Source: a virus
Length of the DNA stretch: 24,953 bases
IMG/VR virus record: IMGVR_UViG_3300034198_021756
Span: 1-24,953 of that record
Direction: 5' to 3' (one strand)
Made by a program: the position numbers and the translations under genes. Below the pieces are notes generated by a model. The model did no database searches. It saw nothing but the letters and a program-made list of their open reading frames with translations, and was not told the DNA's origin. How positions within the stretch are numbered: the first letter of the stretch is position 1; each line of letters begins with the position of its first letter. This document shows positions 4,186 through 12,436 of this stretch, one piece after another.

Positions 4186-4989
4186 ATGGCTGAACGCAAA
4201 TTCTGCTGCTTCAAGGGCCGGGGTGAAATCAGCCTGGTCGATTACCTGGCCCGCCTGGCGCGCACCGCAGGCTTCATTCCTGTAGGCAACGCGCCCAGCT
4301 TTGTGCTCAACGCGACCGAGACCACGGAAAACGTGAAGGACTTCACTACGCCTGGCGGTGGTACTGCTTGCGCGTTCCGTGAAATCGACGCCGTCAACGT
4401 CTCCCTGCAACTGCGCTGCCACTCCCCACGCAATTGGTCCATTGCTACTGGGGGCAGCGGTGAAGGTGCCGAGGTGGCAACAGCCGCCGTCGCCAGCGAG
4501 GAGCATGTGCTGTGGCCTGGCACCGTGGAGCCGCTCGACCACCTGGCCGACGACACCGTGGCCATCGTGGTCAAGAGCGCAGACGGTCAAACGACCTATG
4601 ACGTTGGCACCGACTACGAGATCACGCCGGCAGGCTCCATCAAGCTGGTCGAAGGCACCACCATCCCCGCGCCGACAGTAGCGCAGGGCAAGGGACAGCC
4701 CAACATCACGGTCAGCTACACGCGACGCGAGCAGCGCCTGATCCAGCTGTACTCGCAGCCTCCCAAGCCTGTGGCACTCCACTTCGATGGCTACAACGTG
4801 GCCGAAAGCCCCGTCCAGCCCATCCACTTTGACCTCTTCAAGGTGGTCTTTGGCCCGGCCGCGTCCGTGAACGTCATCAGCGACAACCTGGCCCAGCTGG
4901 AGCTGACCGGTACCGTCGAGCGTGATTCCTCGCGCCCCCTGGGCACCTTGGCCAACCCCTTCAGCCAGTACGGCACGCTGAAGATCTGA
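4186..4989 (+). CDS. Major tail tube protein
   Basis: The 267-residue protein comes immediately before the remaining tail genes and has the strongest ribosome binding site in the module (AGGAGAGAG just after a run of seven T, ~6 bases before ATG 4186), as expected for a protein made in many copies. Tail-tube features are the opening ETTENVKDFTTPGGG, a strand ending in VSLQLRCHSP, then DDTVAIVVKSADGQTTYDVG, DYEITPAGSIKLVEG, NITVSYTRREQ, and near the end the characteristic VALHFDGYNVAESPVQPIHFDLFKVVFGPAA and LAQLELTGTVERDSS. Multiple copies would stack as hexamers to make the tube of a long non-contractile tail. Function is inferred with good confidence from layout and position. Confidence 0.82.
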   Translation: MAERKFCCFKGRGEISLVDYLARLARTAGFIPVGNAPSFVLNATETTENVKDFTTPGGGTACAFREIDAVNVSLQLRCHSPRNWSIATGGSGEGAEVATAAVASEEHVLWPGTVEPLDHLADDTVAIVVKSADGQTTYDVGTDYEITPAGSIKLVEGTTIPAPTVAQGKGQPNITVSYTRREQRLIQLYSQPPKPVALHFDGYNVAESPVQPIHFDLFKVVFGPAASVNVISDNLAQLELTGTVERDSSRPLGTLANPFSQYGTLKI

Positions 4990-5001: not shown

Positions 5002-5850
5002 ATGTATCTGGGCCAGTATGAAGACGCGCGCAACCCTCACCATGTGGGGCGTGGCCGCGTGTTCTTCACTCCACCGCTACTGCCGACAGGCGGCGTGAAT
5101 ATGGACGCCTACGGCCGGCGCTGGGGCAACAACTGGCCCAGCTCTCCTGACATCCCCGGCGATCCACGTATGGCACCCGGCCGATTTGTAGGCAACGCCC
5201 GTGGTCTGGTCGTGCGGCCGTCTCTGCGGCGCTTGCGTACCTCTCCCTGGGATACCAGAGGCAATGCGGTCATCGACAGCATCGCGGCTTCTCTGACGCT
5301 TTATGGCCATGGCGCAGCAAACCTGTCTGACGCTTTGCACGGTCTACGTCTGCAGCATGCCGCACACGAAACCACAGAACAGGTGCGCACAGGCGCGGCC
5401 ACCATCGAAGCGGGCAGCATGCTTTTCACGCGCCACCTGGTCGATATGAGCAAGCCCGTCGAGGTGACACCGTCCTGGTCGACCTGGACTGAGGGCGTGC
5501 ACTGGCGCCGTGAAGCATTCGGCGTGCTTTTGCTGGCTGGCATGTCCGCCCCAGAGAGCGCCCGCATTGATATCCGCTACACGCCAGAAGGCAGCAGCGA
5601 CGAGCTGCAGGTCTTCGGCAATCTGGGCCTTGAGCTGGGCCTGGTCTACGTGGGCCCCAACGTCATCGACGGGCGCATGACCAGGCTGGAGCTGTTCCGC
5701 GCTCGGCCTGAGCTGGGTGATGGCCTCCAGCCCCTTGGCGATGGCGTCAGCACCCTGACCCTGAATTTCAACCTGCAACCCGTGTCCAGCGCTGCTGGCC
5801 GCCCGGCCGAATGGCTGCGCACGACACGCGGTGCATACACAGCAAACTGA
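5002..5850 (+). CDS. Tail protein with a tube-like C-terminal domain
   Basis: The 282-residue protein has an N-terminal ~90 residues rich in Arg, Pro and Gly (MYLGQYEDARNPHHVGRGRV, NWPSSPDIPGDPRMAPGRFV). Residues ~92–270 repeat the tail-tube layout of its neighbour: SLTLYGHGAANLSDALHG, AGSMLFTRHLVDMSKPVEV, EGVHWRREAFGVLLL, ARIDIRYTPEGSS, then ELGLVYVGPNVIDGRMTRLELFRARPE and TLTLNFNLQPVS. The order of strand motifs parallels the major tube protein, so it may be a minor tube or tube-initiator/distal protein. No strong ribosome binding site is seen. I do not recognise a named family; the tube relationship is my reading of the motifs by eye. Confidence 0.6.
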   Translation: MYLGQYEDARNPHHVGRGRVFFTPPLLPTGGVNMDAYGRRWGNNWPSSPDIPGDPRMAPGRFVGNARGLVVRPSLRRLRTSPWDTRGNAVIDSIAASLTLYGHGAANLSDALHGLRLQHAAHETTEQVRTGAATIEAGSMLFTRHLVDMSKPVEVTPSWSTWTEGVHWRREAFGVLLLAGMSAPESARIDIRYTPEGSSDELQVFGNLGLELGLVYVGPNVIDGRMTRLELFRARPELGDGLQPLGDGVSTLTLNFNLQPVSSAAGRPAEWLRTTRGAYTAN

Positions 5851-5851
5851 T

Positions 5852-8530
5852 ATGGCAGTCGAACAACTGGCACGCGGGCTTTGGACTGGCTGGGCGCCGA
5901 CGGAGAACCCTTTCAACACGCCCAATGGCATGGATGCGAATCTGCGCACATTGGACGACCACATGGCGCTCTACACGCTTCAGCCGCCTATTGCCGTGGG
6001 GACACCACTGCCTGTAACAGCAGGCAATGGTGACGGACAGATCTTCATCAACGGCTCCTACGCAATCTTCAATGCAGGCAGTTGGCAGATTTATGGACCA
6101 CGCAAGGGCATCATGTTCATGTCCACGGACGCATCCGAATCCTGGCAATGCAACGGGACCGGATGGACGAAGGCCTCTGTCCTGGACGTCCAACCTGCAA
6201 TTGCGGCGGCACGGGCAACGGTAGAGCCTTTGGTGCAGCGGGCCGAGGATGCGGCACAGGTCGCCACCTCCCAGAGCAACCCGTTTCCCACGATTGCTGC
6301 AGGTATTGCTGGCACCGCCAACGGCCAGTTTTTCACCGTCTATACGGGCGGTACAGACAACCTCAAGCGGTCCACCATCTTCAAGAACAATGCCGGCGTC
6401 GCCAAGCTCATTCAGGAGCTTATCCCTGGCACTGAGTTCGACGGCCTATCGTCTGAGCTGGCGGACTTCTCCCGCGTCGTGGGCTATGCATCGGCTTTGC
6501 CATTTCCACCCGCGTCTGCCGCTGTGACCGGCGGCACTTTCGTCTTTGCTCAGCAAGTCGCTCAAAGCCTCACCCTTTCACGCCTGACCATGAGCGCTGC
6601 AATTGCTGGCGTCATCACGCTGAGTGCGTGGACCCGCGCCGGCGACACCTTTACGCGGACTCGCAGCGTAGATGTTCAGGTGGGCGCTGGGCAGCAGACC
6701 CTGCAGATCAACTTTCCGGTGATGGCCGGCGAGTATGTGGGCGTGTTTGGTCCCAACATCATTCATTACGGCCTGGGCGGCGCGGAAGGCTGGTACAACG
6801 GCGTGGGCAACCAGTTTGTCGACTCCTCTAGTGAGAGCAATTCCCGCCTTTTTGTTCTGCTGGAGACCTCCACCCCGAGCAGAATCGGAAAGCTGGAGGG
6901 ACAAATAGCGAATGCGGTTACCACGCAAGACCTGGATGAACTGACCACCAAGGTAGGAATACAGATTGGTCAACAGGCGCCGATACCCGATGGCAACTGG
7001 GATGTGTCTTGGGGCTCGATGTTTGCCATGGAGCAGGCTGCCCCCTGGCGCGGTACTGTGTCCCGAGTGGCATTCCGCACTTCTGCGGCCGGTGATTTCC
7101 GAGCGATGGTCTTCAAGCGCACAGGAAATCTATTCGAGGTCGTTCAAGAGGTGGTGTTGCACGCTCCTGCGGCTGGCCCCCACGAGTTTGAGACGAACCT
7201 GCCTATCGAAGAAGGCCAGCATGTAGGCTTTCGGACTGCTGTGGGCCGCTATCAGACTGGCACTACCGAGCAGTACGGTTGGTTCGGCGGGTCTGGTACG
7301 ACATCGTTCGTTGACGACACCGTCTCTCGCAATTCTCGCCTGCTGGTGGGTTTCAGATTGGAGCATCGCCGGCTCGCCGCCGTTGCCGGCATGTCTCGGC
7401 ATGAAGGGCTGCCGTTTGAGAGTGCCTTGATCATTGGCATGGGCCAAAGTCTGATGGAAGGCTCCCAGACACCAACCAGCGGCACAAGCCCAATCACCAC
7501 TGTCCAAGAGTACGACAGCGTCGGCTTTCCCGCTTATCCAGCCGCCCCTACATCGATAGCCCCAGCGACCGTAGCAAACACCCAGCGCTCCGGCAGTCGT
7601 GGTGAATGGCCAGGCTTGGGCGCCGCTGCATCGGTACGTCAGCGACTCCTGGCAAACAACAACATTTCCTACAGGGACGTCAAAAGCACTCTGGTCATTG
7701 CCAACAATGCGGTCGGTGGCTCGCCAATCGCCAACATCTCCAAAGGCACTGCGCCCTACAACTCGGCCGTTGCGCAAGCCACTGCGCTGGCGGGTCTGAC
7801 TGGCGACAAGTCTGGTGTTATGGCTGTCATCTACGGCCAAGGGGAGAGCGACGGCGTGCTGACCCGTGAGCAATACCGAGAGGCCTTGATCAAGCTGGCC
7901 ACGGACTTGGATGCGGATCTGCGAGCCGCTACAGGCCAAGCCAAGCAGGTTCCCCTGATCGCCTATCAGCTTGCCACTGCCCGCCGTGATATCTCTCTGG
8001 CTCAGCTCGATGCGGCCCGCAAGAGCCCTTTGGTGAGCATTGCATGCGCCATGTACCCGTTCACGTACTACGACACACAGCACGTCGACAGTATTTCGTC
8101 GCGTCGTATGGGGGGCTACTACGGTGCGGCCGTCAAGCGCATTGCGGTGGATGGCGGGCGCTGGGAGGCCTTGTGGCCGATTGATTGCCGGGTTGATGGA
8201 AATTTCATCACACTCACATTCAATAAGTCGGGGCTGCAGTTCGACGTGAACCTGGTACCGGTCCAATCCAACTATGGCTTCTGGGTCTCCTCGGGATCTG
8301 GGCCTGTGCAGACGATCAATAGCATCGTTGTGCTGAACTCCAACCAGGTGCGCATCGAATGCGCACAGGCACCGCAGCCAGGCTGGACGGTGAACTACGG
8401 CATCAACGCTGTGAACATGGCTCCCTTTACCGGACGGGCCGGCAACTTGAGAGACTGCGCAGGCGATGTGCTGCAGTTCGACAACTACCCATTGCACAAC
8501 TGGTGCCTTGGATTCGACTGGACTATCTGA
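5852..8530 (+). CDS. Phage tail fibre/spike with SGNH esterase domain
   Basis: An 892-residue protein. Residues ~1–100 resemble tail attachment modules (NPFNTPNGMDANLRTLDDH, then DGQIFINGSYAIFNAGSWQIY). Residues ~212–338 and ~375–504 are two related beta-sandwich modules, each ending in a GW-(Y/F)-x-G-x-G ... FVD ... NSRLxV block. Residues ~522–760 are an SGNH/sialate O-acetylesterase-like domain: GMGQSL with the likely nucleophile Ser533, YGQGESDG around Glu665, and DTQH with Asp741 and His744. The last ~130 residues look like a beta domain. It probably binds and deacetylates a host surface polysaccharide. ATG 5852 is preferred over GTG 5831, because the latter sits within the previous gene; neither has a clear ribosome binding site. 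Unusually, the gene lies in the middle of the tail cluster. Confidence 0.82.
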   Translation: MAVEQLARGLWTGWAPTENPFNTPNGMDANLRTLDDHMALYTLQPPIAVGTPLPVTAGNGDGQIFINGSYAIFNAGSWQIYGPRKGIMFMSTDASESWQCNGTGWTKASVLDVQPAIAAARATVEPLVQRAEDAAQVATSQSNPFPTIAAGIAGTANGQFFTVYTGGTDNLKRSTIFKNNAGVAKLIQELIPGTEFDGLSSELADFSRVVGYASALPFPPASAAVTGGTFVFAQQVAQSLTLSRLTMSAAIAGVITLSAWTRAGDTFTRTRSVDVQVGAGQQTLQINFPVMAGEYVGVFGPNIIHYGLGGAEGWYNGVGNQFVDSSSESNSRLFVLLETSTPSRIGKLEGQIANAVTTQDLDELTTKVGIQIGQQAPIPDGNWDVSWGSMFAMEQAAPWRGTVSRVAFRTSAAGDFRAMVFKRTGNLFEVVQEVVLHAPAAGPHEFETNLPIEEGQHVGFRTAVGRYQTGTTEQYGWFGGSGTTSFVDDTVSRNSRLLVGFRLEHRRLAAVAGMSRHEGLPFESALIIGMGQSLMEGSQTPTSGTSPITTVQEYDSVGFPAYPAAPTSIAPATVANTQRSGSRGEWPGLGAAASVRQRLLANNNISYRDVKSTLVIANNAVGGSPIANISKGTAPYNSAVAQATALAGLTGDKSGVMAVIYGQGESDGVLTREQYREALIKLATDLDADLRAATGQAKQVPLIAYQLATARRDISLAQLDAARKSPLVSIACAMYPFTYYDTQHVDSISSRRMGGYYGAAVKRIAVDGGRWEALWPIDCRVDGNFITLTFNKSGLQFDVNLVPVQSNYGFWVSSGSGPVQTINSIVVLNSNQVRIECAQAPQPGWTVNYGINAVNMAPFTGRAGNLRDCAGDVLQFDNYPLHNWCLGFDWTI

Positions 8531-8991
8531 TGAGCAAGCTGTTTCACAACCCGGCCACAAAAAGCATCGCTGGCCACGATTTCCAGGTCAGCCAGGTGCC
8601 TTTTGAGGTCTTCACCGAGGCATTCGAGTTTGGCGACTGGCTGATCAGCATGCAGGGCGGCAAATTCGATCTGGCCAGCCTCAAGGTGCTGCAAGGCGAA
8701 TCGACCTTGCGCCTGGCGCTGGAAAAGTTGCTGGCAGCGTGCCTGGCGCCAGTGCAGGATGGCCAGGCCAAGCCCATGTCGGTGGCTGATGTGCGTGCGA
8801 TGCCGATAGCCATGGTGCTCGAAGCAGTCTATGTGGTGCTGGAGGAAAACCTCAGTTTTTTTACCCAGCGCCTGCAGGCGATCAAGGTGATCCAGGCGAA
8901 ACTGATGTCGATTGGTTCGCCGTTGCTCAGCAGCTCATCGCCGCAGGCCACGACCGACAGCAGCTTCGGCGCTACAGCATCGACGAGCTGA
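8530..8991 (+). CDS. Tail assembly chaperone, short form (lambda gpG-like)
   Basis: The 153-residue protein is mostly helical (FEVFTEAFEFGDWLISMQ, STLRLALEKLLAACLAP, MVLEAVYVVLEENLSFF) and sits just upstream of the tape-measure gene, the fixed place of tail assembly chaperones. These proteins coat the tape measure during tail assembly and are absent from the finished virion. Its ATG shares one base with the fibre stop (TGATG). The last ~40 residues after the slippery site turn into a Ser/Thr-rich low-complexity tail (GSPLLSSSSPQATTDSS), which looks like incidental coding and fits the idea that the biologically meaningful C-terminus is in the -1 frame. Family call is by position, helical character and the frameshift signal. 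Confidence 0.75.
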   Translation: MSKLFHNPATKSIAGHDFQVSQVPFEVFTEAFEFGDWLISMQGGKFDLASLKVLQGESTLRLALEKLLAACLAPVQDGQAKPMSVADVRAMPIAMVLEAVYVVLEENLSFFTQRLQAIKVIQAKLMSIGSPLLSSSSPQATTDSSFGATASTS

Positions 8992-9086
8992 AAGGCTATC
9001 TGCAGGCCATCGGCGACCAGGCCGAACGTCATGCACAACACCAGGCGGTCCACACAGCCGTCGCACTCGCAGGGGGCTCAATCTGA
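8530..9086 (+). CDS. Tail assembly chaperone, -1 frameshift product (lambda gpGT-like)
   Basis: If ribosomes slip back one base on the heptamer at 8856–8862, the first 111 codons join a -1 reading frame that continues for 74 more codons to the TGA at 9084–9086, giving 185 residues. The extension contains DVDWFAVAQQLIAAGHD, LRRYSIDELKGYLQAIGDQ and AERHAQHQAVHTAV, a well-formed helical domain, whereas the zero frame here is low complexity. The -1 frame is open from 8790 to 9083 and I find no ATG, GTG or TTG in it, so it cannot easily be translated alone. Lambda gpGT and many other siphophages make their second chaperone this way, at a low ratio to the short form. Frameshifting itself is inferred. 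Confidence 0.78.
8856..8862 (+). promoter_or_regulatory. -1 ribosomal frameshift slippery site T TTT TTT
   Basis: Seven consecutive T fit the X XXY YYZ heptamer in the correct zero-frame phase (agT TTT TTT acc). Six bases downstream is CGCCTGCAGGCG at 8869–8880, a perfect palindrome that can fold as a 4-bp GC stem with a TGCA loop, a modest candidate stimulator. The -1 frame beyond encodes the chaperone extension. Confidence 0.75.
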
Positions 9087-9097
9087 GCCCCTTTTTT
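9073..9097 (+). terminator. Rho-independent terminator overlapping the chaperone -1 frame stop
   Basis: GGGGCTCA at 9073–9080 and TGAGCCCC at 9084–9091 form a perfect 8-bp stem around a 3-base ATC loop, followed at once by six T (9092–9097). The TGA stop of the frameshift product is the first three bases of the right arm. It lies inside the tail gene cluster, between the chaperone and the tape-measure gene, so either it is read through by a phage antitermination activity or it lowers expression of the downstream tail-tip genes. Confidence 0.8.
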
Positions 9098-9160
9098 CAT
9101 GGGCAAACTCTAAAGCGTTTTACTTATTGCTGAGGGCCGTGGCGGGAGACCATGCGGTCC

Positions 9161-12100
9161 ATGGCAAACAACCTCGAAATCGGACTGCGGGTCCAGGCCG
9201 CACTGGACGAAGCGCGCAAAGAAGTCCGCGCGTTCACTGCCGAAGTCCAAGAGCTGGGTGCAGCCGGCAAAAAAGCTTCGTCAGAAATGTCGACCGTGCC
9301 GGCGCCCGCGTCTGGCTCGGCTCCGTCGGCTCCCGGCTCCGACCAGGCCGCTACAGCCAGGCAGGCGGCCACGGCCACTCAAGAGCAAGCCACAGCCACG
9401 GCCACGCTGTCAGCAGCCCAGAAGGAACAGGCCGAAGCCTCTGATCGCTCAGCCAAGTCCGAGCAGGAGCTGACCAAGCAGCGGGAATCCCAGGGGCAGC
9501 AAAGCAGGAAGAACGAGGAGCAGCAACAGCGCCAGGCTAAAGGCTCCGACGAAGCCGCCAAGGCTACCGACCGTGAAAAGCTGGCCATTGACCGCCTGAT
9601 TGCCAGCCTGGACCCCGCCGCCACTGAGGCCTTCCGCCTAGCGCAAGCTCAGAACGAACTGAATACTGCCCTGGCCCGTGGCCTCATCACACAGGACCAG
9701 CACACGCGCCTCATGGGCCTGGCTCAGCAGCGCTTTGCCGGCCTTGGTGTTTCTGCAGGGCAAACAGCAGCGGCAATGCGCATGCTGCCGGCGCAGATCA
9801 CCGATATCACCACCAGCATCGCCAGCGGCATGCCCATCTGGCTTGTGGCGATCCAACAAGGTGGGCAGATCAAGGATTCGTTCGGTGGTGTGGCTCCTGC
9901 CTTCAACGCCATCACCTCGGCAATCTCCCCGGCCAAGGCGGCCGTCGGCGGTCTGGCCTTGGGTGTTGGAGCCTTGGCACTGCTGTTCCTCGAAGCCGAG
10001 AAAAAGGCCTATGCCTTCAATGTGGCTGTGCAGACCACCGGGAATGCGGCCGGCGCGACGCATGGGCGCATCGAAGCCCTGGCCGAGGCGGCCAACAAAG
10101 TCAGCGGCATCAGCAAGAGCGCAGCCGAGTCCGCGGCCGTGGCCATGGTGCAGTCCGGTCGCCTTGGCATCGACGTCATCGGCAACCTGACCAAGGCCAT
10201 CAACGGCTATGCGACCGCCACCGGGCAGTCCACCGATGCGGCGGCCAGCTCCCTTGCCAAGCTGTTTGCGGAGCCTGCCAAGGCCGCCAAGCAGCTGGAT
10301 GATCAGTTCAACTTCCTCTCGGCAACGCAGCGCCGGCACATCGCCGACCTGGTCGAGCAAGGCCGGGTCGAGGAAGCCCAGCTGGAGCTGAGCCGGCAGA
10401 CCGCCGACCACTTCGGCCGCGTGGTGCCGGAAAACCTCGGCTATCTGATGAAGGCCCTGAACACTGCGGCCGAGGTGGCCCGTAAATTCTGGGGCGCAAT
10501 CATGAACACGGGCAAGCAGCAGACTCCAGAGGACTTGATCAATGAACAGGAGGCCCGCGTCACTCAGCTAGCAGCAGACCTCAAGCGTCGCGGGAGCAAT
10601 TTGGCGGGCAATCAGCAGATGCCAGCAATGCTCGTCGCAGAGATGAACAAGCTCAGCGATATGTACCGAGAAAGAGATGCTAAAGACAAGGCTGCTGATG
10701 ATGAGGCTGCAAAACAATCTAAGGATCGCGAGGTCAAAGCGATCCATGAAAAATATGCTGCGGCCATAAAGGCTACAGAGACCGAAGAAAAAAGGCTGGC
10801 AGAGAGCAAGAAGCTCTGGCAAAGCTGGCGTGACAAAGGTGCTATCACTCAAGATGAGCTGGACACACTGATCAAGCAGGCTGACGACAAGGCAGCGAAG
10901 AAGACACGCACGACGAAGGCCAACACGCCTGAGCAGGAGGCTATCCAGCAGATCCGCTCAAATCTGCGCACCCTGCAAGCCTCAATCAAGAGCAGTGATG
11001 CCTTCCTGGTCAACCAGCTGGAAGAAGGCCGTGTCAACATTGAGGAGGCCTACCAAAAGCGCCTGGCTGGCATCAATGAAGACTACGAGGCCCAGCGTGA
11101 GGCTCTAGAAAAAGAGCTGAATGCCAAGGGCACGACAAAGACTCGGGCTGTGGAGCTGAAGGCATCGCTCAAGGTCTTGGAGCAATCGAAGGCAGATTCC
11201 ACGCGCGAGTTGGACAAATGGCGGCGCTCTGAAGAGTTGAAGCTGGCAAACCTCGTCGTGAGACTGCGTGTAGATACAGCTGCATTGACTGGGCAGTTTG
11301 ACCGTGAGGCCATCCGAAAGCAGTTGGAGCTGCAATATGCGGAGGAGCTGCGCGCCGCTGGCCGCCAGTCGAATCCTGCGGATGCCGAAAAGTCTCGCCA
11401 GCAGGTCCAATTATTGATAGAGGCTGGTGCTGCTCAGGCCGAATTCAACAATAAGCTGGCAGAGGCGCAGCGCCTTCAGAGCCAGCTCGGCGTCATCGAG
11501 CAGGCCGTGCAGACCCAAGCCACACAGGGCACGATCAGCCAGATCGAGGCCGAAGCACGCATCAGACAGGCCCGCGCATCCCAGGTGCCGTTGCTGCAAG
11601 CCATCGTCCAGGAGCTTGAGCGGGTGCGCGACAGCCTGCCGCCAGAGGCTCAGGTCGCCATAGACAACATGAGCACCAGCATCGGCCAGCTCAAAAATGA
11701 AGTGGCCGGCGCTACGCCTGTGGTCGTCAACCTTGGAACGCGCCTGCGCAATACCGTCATCGACGGCGTGGCGGATGCAGCGGCCAATGCCGTGACTAAT
11801 TTCAAGAGCCTGAGTGAGGTCGCTAGCGCGACCCTGCGCCAGATTGCCGGTGACATCGTGCGCAGTGACATCAAGCGGTTGCTGACCAATATGTTTACGC
11901 CTGATGTGAGCGGCGGCGGTACTGTCATCGGCGGTATTTTCGGAAGCATCGGCAAGATTTTCGGGTTCGCCGAGGGCGGGTCTCCCTCATCGGGCGGCGG
12001 CCGCATCGTGGGCCCTGGCACGGGCACCAGCGACAGCATTGCCGCTCTGGTCGACGGCAAACGTCCCATTGCCGTCAGCAATAACGAGTTCATCCAGCCC

Positions 12101-12436
12101 GAAAAGGCGGTGAATCACTACGGCCTGCCGTTCATGGAAGCAGTGCGTACTCTGCGCCTGCCAAAGCCTCGCTTCGCTCTGGGCGGTCTGATATCAGCCA
12201 GCCAGCGCGTGAGCTTCGCCACAGGGGGCTCTGTATCGTCCGCCGGCGGTGCCATGCCTGGCCAGACTCAGCCTGTGGAGGTCCGCTTCAACAACCAGGG
12301 CACTCCCAAACAGCAGGTCGGCCAGCCAATAACCAAACAGGAATTGGGCCGCCTGGTCGTAGAAATCATGATCGCAGATGCAAGCAATGGCGGGAAAGCC
12401 TCAAGCGCAATCAACGCGGCAGGGAGGCGCAACTGA
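9161..12436 (+). CDS. Tail tape measure protein
   Basis: The ~1091-residue protein is the longest in the window, and its length should set tail length. Residues ~30–150 are an Ala/Gln/Glu-rich low-complexity coil. Residues ~200–250 carry the TMP_2-type segment LPAQITDITTSIASGMPIWLV-like with IQQGGQIKDSFGG, followed by a hydrophobic stretch (AVGGLALGVGALALLFL). Long coiled coils follow at ~440–870. The C-terminus carries the lambda gpH-like block VADAAANAVTNF, SLSEVASATLRQIAGDIVRSDIKRLLTNM, and a Gly-rich end with RPIAVSNNEFIQPEKAV. The start is between ATG 9152 and ATG 9161; GGGAG at 9144–9148 is very close to the first and a little far from the second, and MANNLEIGLRVQAALDEARKE is the usual family beginning. 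Confidence 0.88.
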   Translation: MANNLEIGLRVQAALDEARKEVRAFTAEVQELGAAGKKASSEMSTVPAPASGSAPSAPGSDQAATARQAATATQEQATATATLSAAQKEQAEASDRSAKSEQELTKQRESQGQQSRKNEEQQQRQAKGSDEAAKATDREKLAIDRLIASLDPAATEAFRLAQAQNELNTALARGLITQDQHTRLMGLAQQRFAGLGVSAGQTAAAMRMLPAQITDITTSIASGMPIWLVAIQQGGQIKDSFGGVAPAFNAITSAISPAKAAVGGLALGVGALALLFLEAEKKAYAFNVAVQTTGNAAGATHGRIEALAEAANKVSGISKSAAESAAVAMVQSGRLGIDVIGNLTKAINGYATATGQSTDAAASSLAKLFAEPAKAAKQLDDQFNFLSATQRRHIADLVEQGRVEEAQLELSRQTADHFGRVVPENLGYLMKALNTAAEVARKFWGAIMNTGKQQTPEDLINEQEARVTQLAADLKRRGSNLAGNQQMPAMLVAEMNKLSDMYRERDAKDKAADDEAAKQSKDREVKAIHEKYAAAIKATETEEKRLAESKKLWQSWRDKGAITQDELDTLIKQADDKAAKKTRTTKANTPEQEAIQQIRSNLRTLQASIKSSDAFLVNQLEEGRVNIEEAYQKRLAGINEDYEAQREALEKELNAKGTTKTRAVELKASLKVLEQSKADSTRELDKWRRSEELKLANLVVRLRVDTAALTGQFDREAIRKQLELQYAEELRAAGRQSNPADAEKSRQQVQLLIEAGAAQAEFNNKLAEAQRLQSQLGVIEQAVQTQATQGTISQIEAEARIRQARASQVPLLQAIVQELERVRDSLPPEAQVAIDNMSTSIGQLKNEVAGATPVVVNLGTRLRNTVIDGVADAAANAVTNFKSLSEVASATLRQIAGDIVRSDIKRLLTNMFTPDVSGGGTVIGGIFGSIGKIFGFAEGGSPSSGGGRIVGPGTGTSDSIAALVDGKRPIAVSNNEFIQPEKAVNHYGLPFMEAVRTLRLPKPRFALGGLISASQRVSFATGGSVSSAGGAMPGQTQPVEVRFNNQGTPKQQVGQPITKQELGRLVVEIMIADASNGGKASSAINAAGRRN

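Follow-up and report, generated by a model that had tools for sequence, protein, structure and literature searches.

A predicted programmed -1 frameshift in the tail assembly chaperone locus of a D3112-like phage

The chaperone locus and its two frames

In the virus record IMGVR_UViG_3300034198_021756, whose full 24,953 bases we analysed as a single window, an apparent tail assembly chaperone gene (G) is overlapped by a long open stretch in the -1 frame (T) that lacks any of the usual start codons. The question raised by this locus is whether the second frame is translated, and if so, by what means. A previous sequence-only reading proposed a programmed -1 frameshift, and we consider it very likely, judging from the sequence evidence below, that the locus does yield both G (153 aa) and a GT fusion (185 aa) in this way.

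The genes of the window run in the order Mu-type protease, major capsid, head-tail adaptor, tail terminator, major tail protein (4186-4989), second major-tail-like protein, esterase-bearing fibre-like protein, G/GT, tape measure and minor tail proteins. The stretch 5002-8530 is occupied by the second major-tail-like protein (phrog_807, E 3e-7) and the fibre-like protein, which has 899 aa and an acetylesterase (SASA) domain. The features that the argument needs are the following:

8530-8991, + strand: gene G in the zero frame, for the tail assembly chaperone of 153 aa (open reading frame; phrog_1442; adjoins the tape measure gene on its 5' side)
8856-8862, + strand: T TTT TTT, slippery heptamer in phase with G (sequence; site shared by 57 of 59 homologous loci)
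8862-9083, + strand: T extension in the -1 frame, 74 codons after the slip, with a conserved helical motif W..QRLI..GH....YTL (profile homologues; pS far above pN; phrog_14432 match; three helices in an AlphaFold model)
8530-9083, + strand: predicted GT fusion product, 185 aa, by way of a -1 slip at 8856-8862 (sequence; homology to the annotated frameshift products of Suso and HXX_Dennis and to D3112 orf42/orf43)
9084-9086, + strand: TGA stop of the T frame, within a terminator-like hairpin (sequence)
9152-12436, + strand: gene for the tape measure protein, the expected client of G and GT (Pfam TMP_2, E 2.7e-58; phrog_24, E 1.3e-113)

The zero-frame codons TTT TTT fall at 8857-8862, so the heptamer has the phase X XXY YYZ. 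The -1 frame is preceded by a stop at 8787-8789 and is open from 8790 to 9083; it contains no ATG, GTG or TTG, and its only near-starts are CTG and ATC. After a slip at 8862 the junction would read SFF followed by YPAPAGD, and then 67 further residues. On re-check the coordinates of G and of the T run, the phase of the heptamer, the limits of the -1 frame and its lack of starts, the 74 residues after the slip and the 185-residue length of GT all agreed with the sequence-only reading. Among 16 phage genes tested, this site in G is the sole in-phase heptamer made of a T or A run.

The majority of ribosomes would translate G, while a minority would slip by -1 on T TTT TTT, where the tRNA-Phe in both the P site and the A site could re-pair with UUU UUU, and would carry on in the -1 frame to give GT. 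By analogy with lambda, G may coat the tape measure protein, and GT may recruit the major tail protein through its T domain. We infer the occurrence of slippage, its efficiency and these roles from sequence and analogy.

Conservation of the slip site

Both frames and the T run are kept in all six related viral contigs (L002-L007), of which L007 is the most distant, with 42% identity over GT; a Pigmentiphaga locus (L009) has 54%. The closest relative in a named host genome is a Comamonas testosteroni locus (L008, 89% identity). A GT profile, run against 399 genomes from the same order, added ten loci, and each of the ten has an overlapping open reading frame, an EVNADFF-like ending and an in-phase TTTTTTT or TTTTTTC leading into the matched frame. 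With a profile of T only, and with the search broadened to class and family, the total came to 59 loci, the relatives of the T extension being found in genomes of other Burkholderiales and of Gammaproteobacteria as well as in cultured phages. One further candidate (L046) was left out of this total as a likely chance match (E 7e-4, 29 residues within a frame of 765 aa). The 59 loci are redundant, and represent 55 distinct contexts and 26 representatives below 60% identity.

An in-phase TTTTTT(T/C/G) lies at the same place in the overlapping chaperone frame in 57 of the 59 loci, most of which were found by way of the T protein. Since protein similarity was what led to the genome loci, the slip site was no precondition of the search. 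Two relatives have TTTTTTG, which alters the amino acid and keeps the run. The remaining two belong to a single genome: in L052 a T is missing from the run, and in L071 the run adjoins undetermined bases. With its run one base short, just upstream of position 1501, L052 could not join the frames by a -1 shift and could not make GT that way; the locus may have decayed, or the missing base may be a homopolymer sequencing error. All 55 distinct contexts have TTT as the first codon of the slip site, compared with 54 of 218 phenylalanine codons (25%) elsewhere in these genes, although relatives of common ancestry are not independent events.

A T run could also be slippery for RNA polymerase rather than for the ribosome, in which case mRNAs with one base more or fewer would give the mixture of G and GT. 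The seven Ts in the window and the longer run in L015 would suit such a mechanism, but 22 of the 55 distinct contexts have just six Ts followed by C, and 2 have six followed by G. A run of six is short for polymerase slippage. The phase is also kept throughout, and a Shine-Dalgarno-like element, which acts on ribosomes, stands at a fixed spacing from the site (see below). We therefore regard polymerase slippage as very unlikely, and continue with the ribosomal frameshift.

Selection on the -1 frame

In the region that only T covers, past the G stop, comparison of the window with L009 gave pS 0.85 and pN 0.21, and comparison with L015 gave pS 0.84 and pN 0.17. In the other two frames of this region pN is higher than pS, so the synonymous excess is specific to the -1 frame. 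By this measure the -1 frame is under purifying selection.

These results bear on the idea that the open stretch arose by chance, is what remains of a separate gene, or is expressed from an internal start of its own, for which the GGAGG sequence just upstream might speak. We give it almost no credence, as it is already contradicted by the selection in the -1 frame, by the slip site in 57 of 59 loci, and by the lack of ATG, GTG or TTG in the -1 frame and within reach of GGAGG in any frame.

A Shine-Dalgarno-like element upstream of the slip site

The GGAGG sequence may instead be a frameshift stimulator:

8841-8845, + strand: GGAGG, Shine-Dalgarno-like, a proposed stimulator 10 nt 5' of the slip site (energy of the duplex with the anti-Shine-Dalgarno sequence -9.3 kcal/mol; positional peak in the family)

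Its 10-nt spacer falls within the range of 9-14 nt known for Shine-Dalgarno-like stimulators of -1 sites (PMC5009743), of which E. coli dnaX is the type. Across the family, 8-mers that end 8 nt 5' of the slip have a mean predicted pairing energy of -7.4 kcal/mol with the 16S rRNA 3' end, compared with a background of -1.1, and the signal peaks at the same spacing over the 26 divergent representatives. It is weak in some relatives (L030, L036 and L066). When the upstream codons were recoded synonymously, the observed strength was equalled in 6 of 2000 trials, suggesting that the signal comes partly from conservation of the protein and partly not. A conserved glutamate is encoded by GAG in all 46 contexts that have it, compared with 65% of glutamate codons elsewhere.

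Like the corresponding element in dnaX, GGAGG probably favours slippage by pairing with 16S rRNA. The sequence-only reading missed this conserved element and pointed to a short CGCC/GGCG hairpin, which does lie six bases past the run (CGCC-TGCA-GGCG, 8869-8880) but is a poor candidate for a stimulator: the fold downstream of the site in the window has z = -1.14, with 26 of 200 shuffles equally good, and the divergent relatives lack the hairpin. We reject it in that role on both grounds, and consider the Shine-Dalgarno-like element the likelier stimulator. Nor does the family show a stable downstream stem-loop of the dnaX type, the mean z over the 26 representatives being -0.87, a rough guide only, as the scores come from mononucleotide shuffles; exceptions with a strong fold include Suso and L020. 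Our literature search on tail chaperone frameshifts found no statement that Shine-Dalgarno-like rRNA pairing drives them. The fixed spacing of the element suggests that such pairing helps to drive this class of tail chaperone frameshift.

Comparison with known frameshift cassettes

Frameshifting of the lambda type is widely conserved in phages with long tails (PMC5009743), and the window resembles lambda gpG/gpGT in its position before the tape measure gene, in a predicted low-level -1 shift near the end of G, and in the function expected of the products (PMC5009743). The overlapping frames adjoin the tape measure gene and lie 3' of the major tail protein gene, with two other tail genes between; an in-phase slippery sequence lies near the 3' end of G; and the second frame is protein-coding and conserved, as judged from its profile homologues and from pS and pN. 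The lambda slip site is G GGA AAG, and has no Shine-Dalgarno-like element, in contrast to T TTT TTT with GGAGG in the window. The sequence-only reading had suggested a comparison of the extension with lambda gpT-like and other phage G/GT proteins. We found no detectable similarity between T and lambda gpT (hhalign, probability 0.1%) and reject that homology; thus the window would work in the manner of lambda G/GT, and belongs to the D3112 group by homology.

Homologues of the extension, with a slippery site at the matching position, were found in the chaperone loci of other phages, so that both sequence-based checks set by that reading came out in its favour; they appeared both in our profile searches and in the -1 frame of D3112, which the T profile matches with E 4e-13. 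In D3112 (orf42/orf43) and PaMx73 (core ORFs 35/36), of the Casadabanvirus group, the genes run from protease to tape measure as in the window, and the homology of the window to this group is seen for G through phrog_1442 and for the T extension through its profile. A T TTT TTC frameshift has been proposed in the homologous chaperone of PaMx73 (PMC4378225), and this site is in phase in both phages, as T TTT TTT is in the window. There are differences: D3112 orf43 is annotated from an ATG, whereas the T frame of the window has none; the Shine-Dalgarno-like element of D3112 is weaker and farther upstream; and the window has a terminator-like hairpin after T and, inserted between the chaperone and major tail protein genes, two genes (5002-8530) that D3112 lacks at this position.

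Stenotrophomonas phage Suso and Xanthomonas phage HXX_Dennis have a T domain homologous to that of the window and a T TTT TTC site, and in both the joined coding sequence is annotated as a "tape measure chaperone frameshift product". Compared with the window, their G protein is longer and their Shine-Dalgarno-like signal weak, and Suso has the strong downstream fold mentioned above. These two matches were obtained with the GT of a more central family member as the query; the DNA of the window had no match among cultured phages, and tblastn of the window's own GT found nothing in the phage collection. E. coli dnaX resembles the window in having a Shine-Dalgarno-like element at a similar distance upstream of a slippery heptamer (PMC5009743), but it also has a strong downstream hairpin, it is a cellular gene, and its shift yields a shorter product.

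With high confidence, which applies jointly to the whole frameshift explanation, we assign the locus on sequence grounds to the G/GT tail assembly chaperone cassette of a D3112-like phage, with a Mu-type head and a siphophage tail, of Comamonas or a near relative. This type of cassette is already known, given the homologous arrangement in D3112, published for PaMx73, and the annotations in Suso and HXX_Dennis. To it we would add the conserved Shine-Dalgarno-like element and the apparent assignment of three protein families, DUF6631, phrog_14432 and phrog_13355. The annotation of this prophage family, in which the T extension is easily missed, is also corrected.

Protein families and predicted structures

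The three families are all catalogued as of unknown function. DUF6631, a Pfam family matched by 29 of 39 members of the G family, corresponds to the G protein in the related loci, phrog_13355 to the T extension, and phrog_14432, which the T extension of the window matches, appears to span both parts. G itself matches phrog_1442, "tail assembly chaperone", with E 9e-4 for the protein of the window and in 36 of 39 family members. A Sec7-like Pfam match to G (E 0.0065) was below its cut-off and was disregarded, and a Pfam search with T and GT found nothing.

In the AlphaFold models G is a compact protein of mixed fold (pLDDT 81.8), whose last long helix begins at the slip site, and T consists of three helices, predicted with moderate confidence (pLDDT 71.5). 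Structure searches with the T and G models against the PDB, and with T against viral models, found no meaningful relatives.

The region before the tape measure gene

The T frame had been described as ending right at a terminator, and its TGA does lie inside a strong hairpin (9071-9093) followed by a T tail:

9071-9097, + strand: hairpin of 10 pairs with a T tail, resembling an intrinsic terminator, between GT and the tape measure gene (fold -16.8 kcal/mol)

The hairpin straddles the T stop and is present in the close Comamonas clade only; many other relatives have the start of the next open reading frame adjacent to the T stop or overlapping it. With the -1 stop inside the hairpin, only shifted ribosomes would reach and open it and so let transcription proceed. 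It is conceivable, if unlikely, that the frameshift in this clade also sets the expression of the tape measure gene, in which case the shift would be a switch for that gene besides being the source of GT.

In the spacer that leads from the T stop to the tape measure gene, at 9106-9125, we also observed a 20-base motif, AACTSTAAARCGYTTTACTT, with the palindrome TAAARCGYTTTA, which occurs once per phage. The motif is kept even in the divergent L007 and L015, where much of the remaining spacer is lost, and is possibly a protein-binding site.
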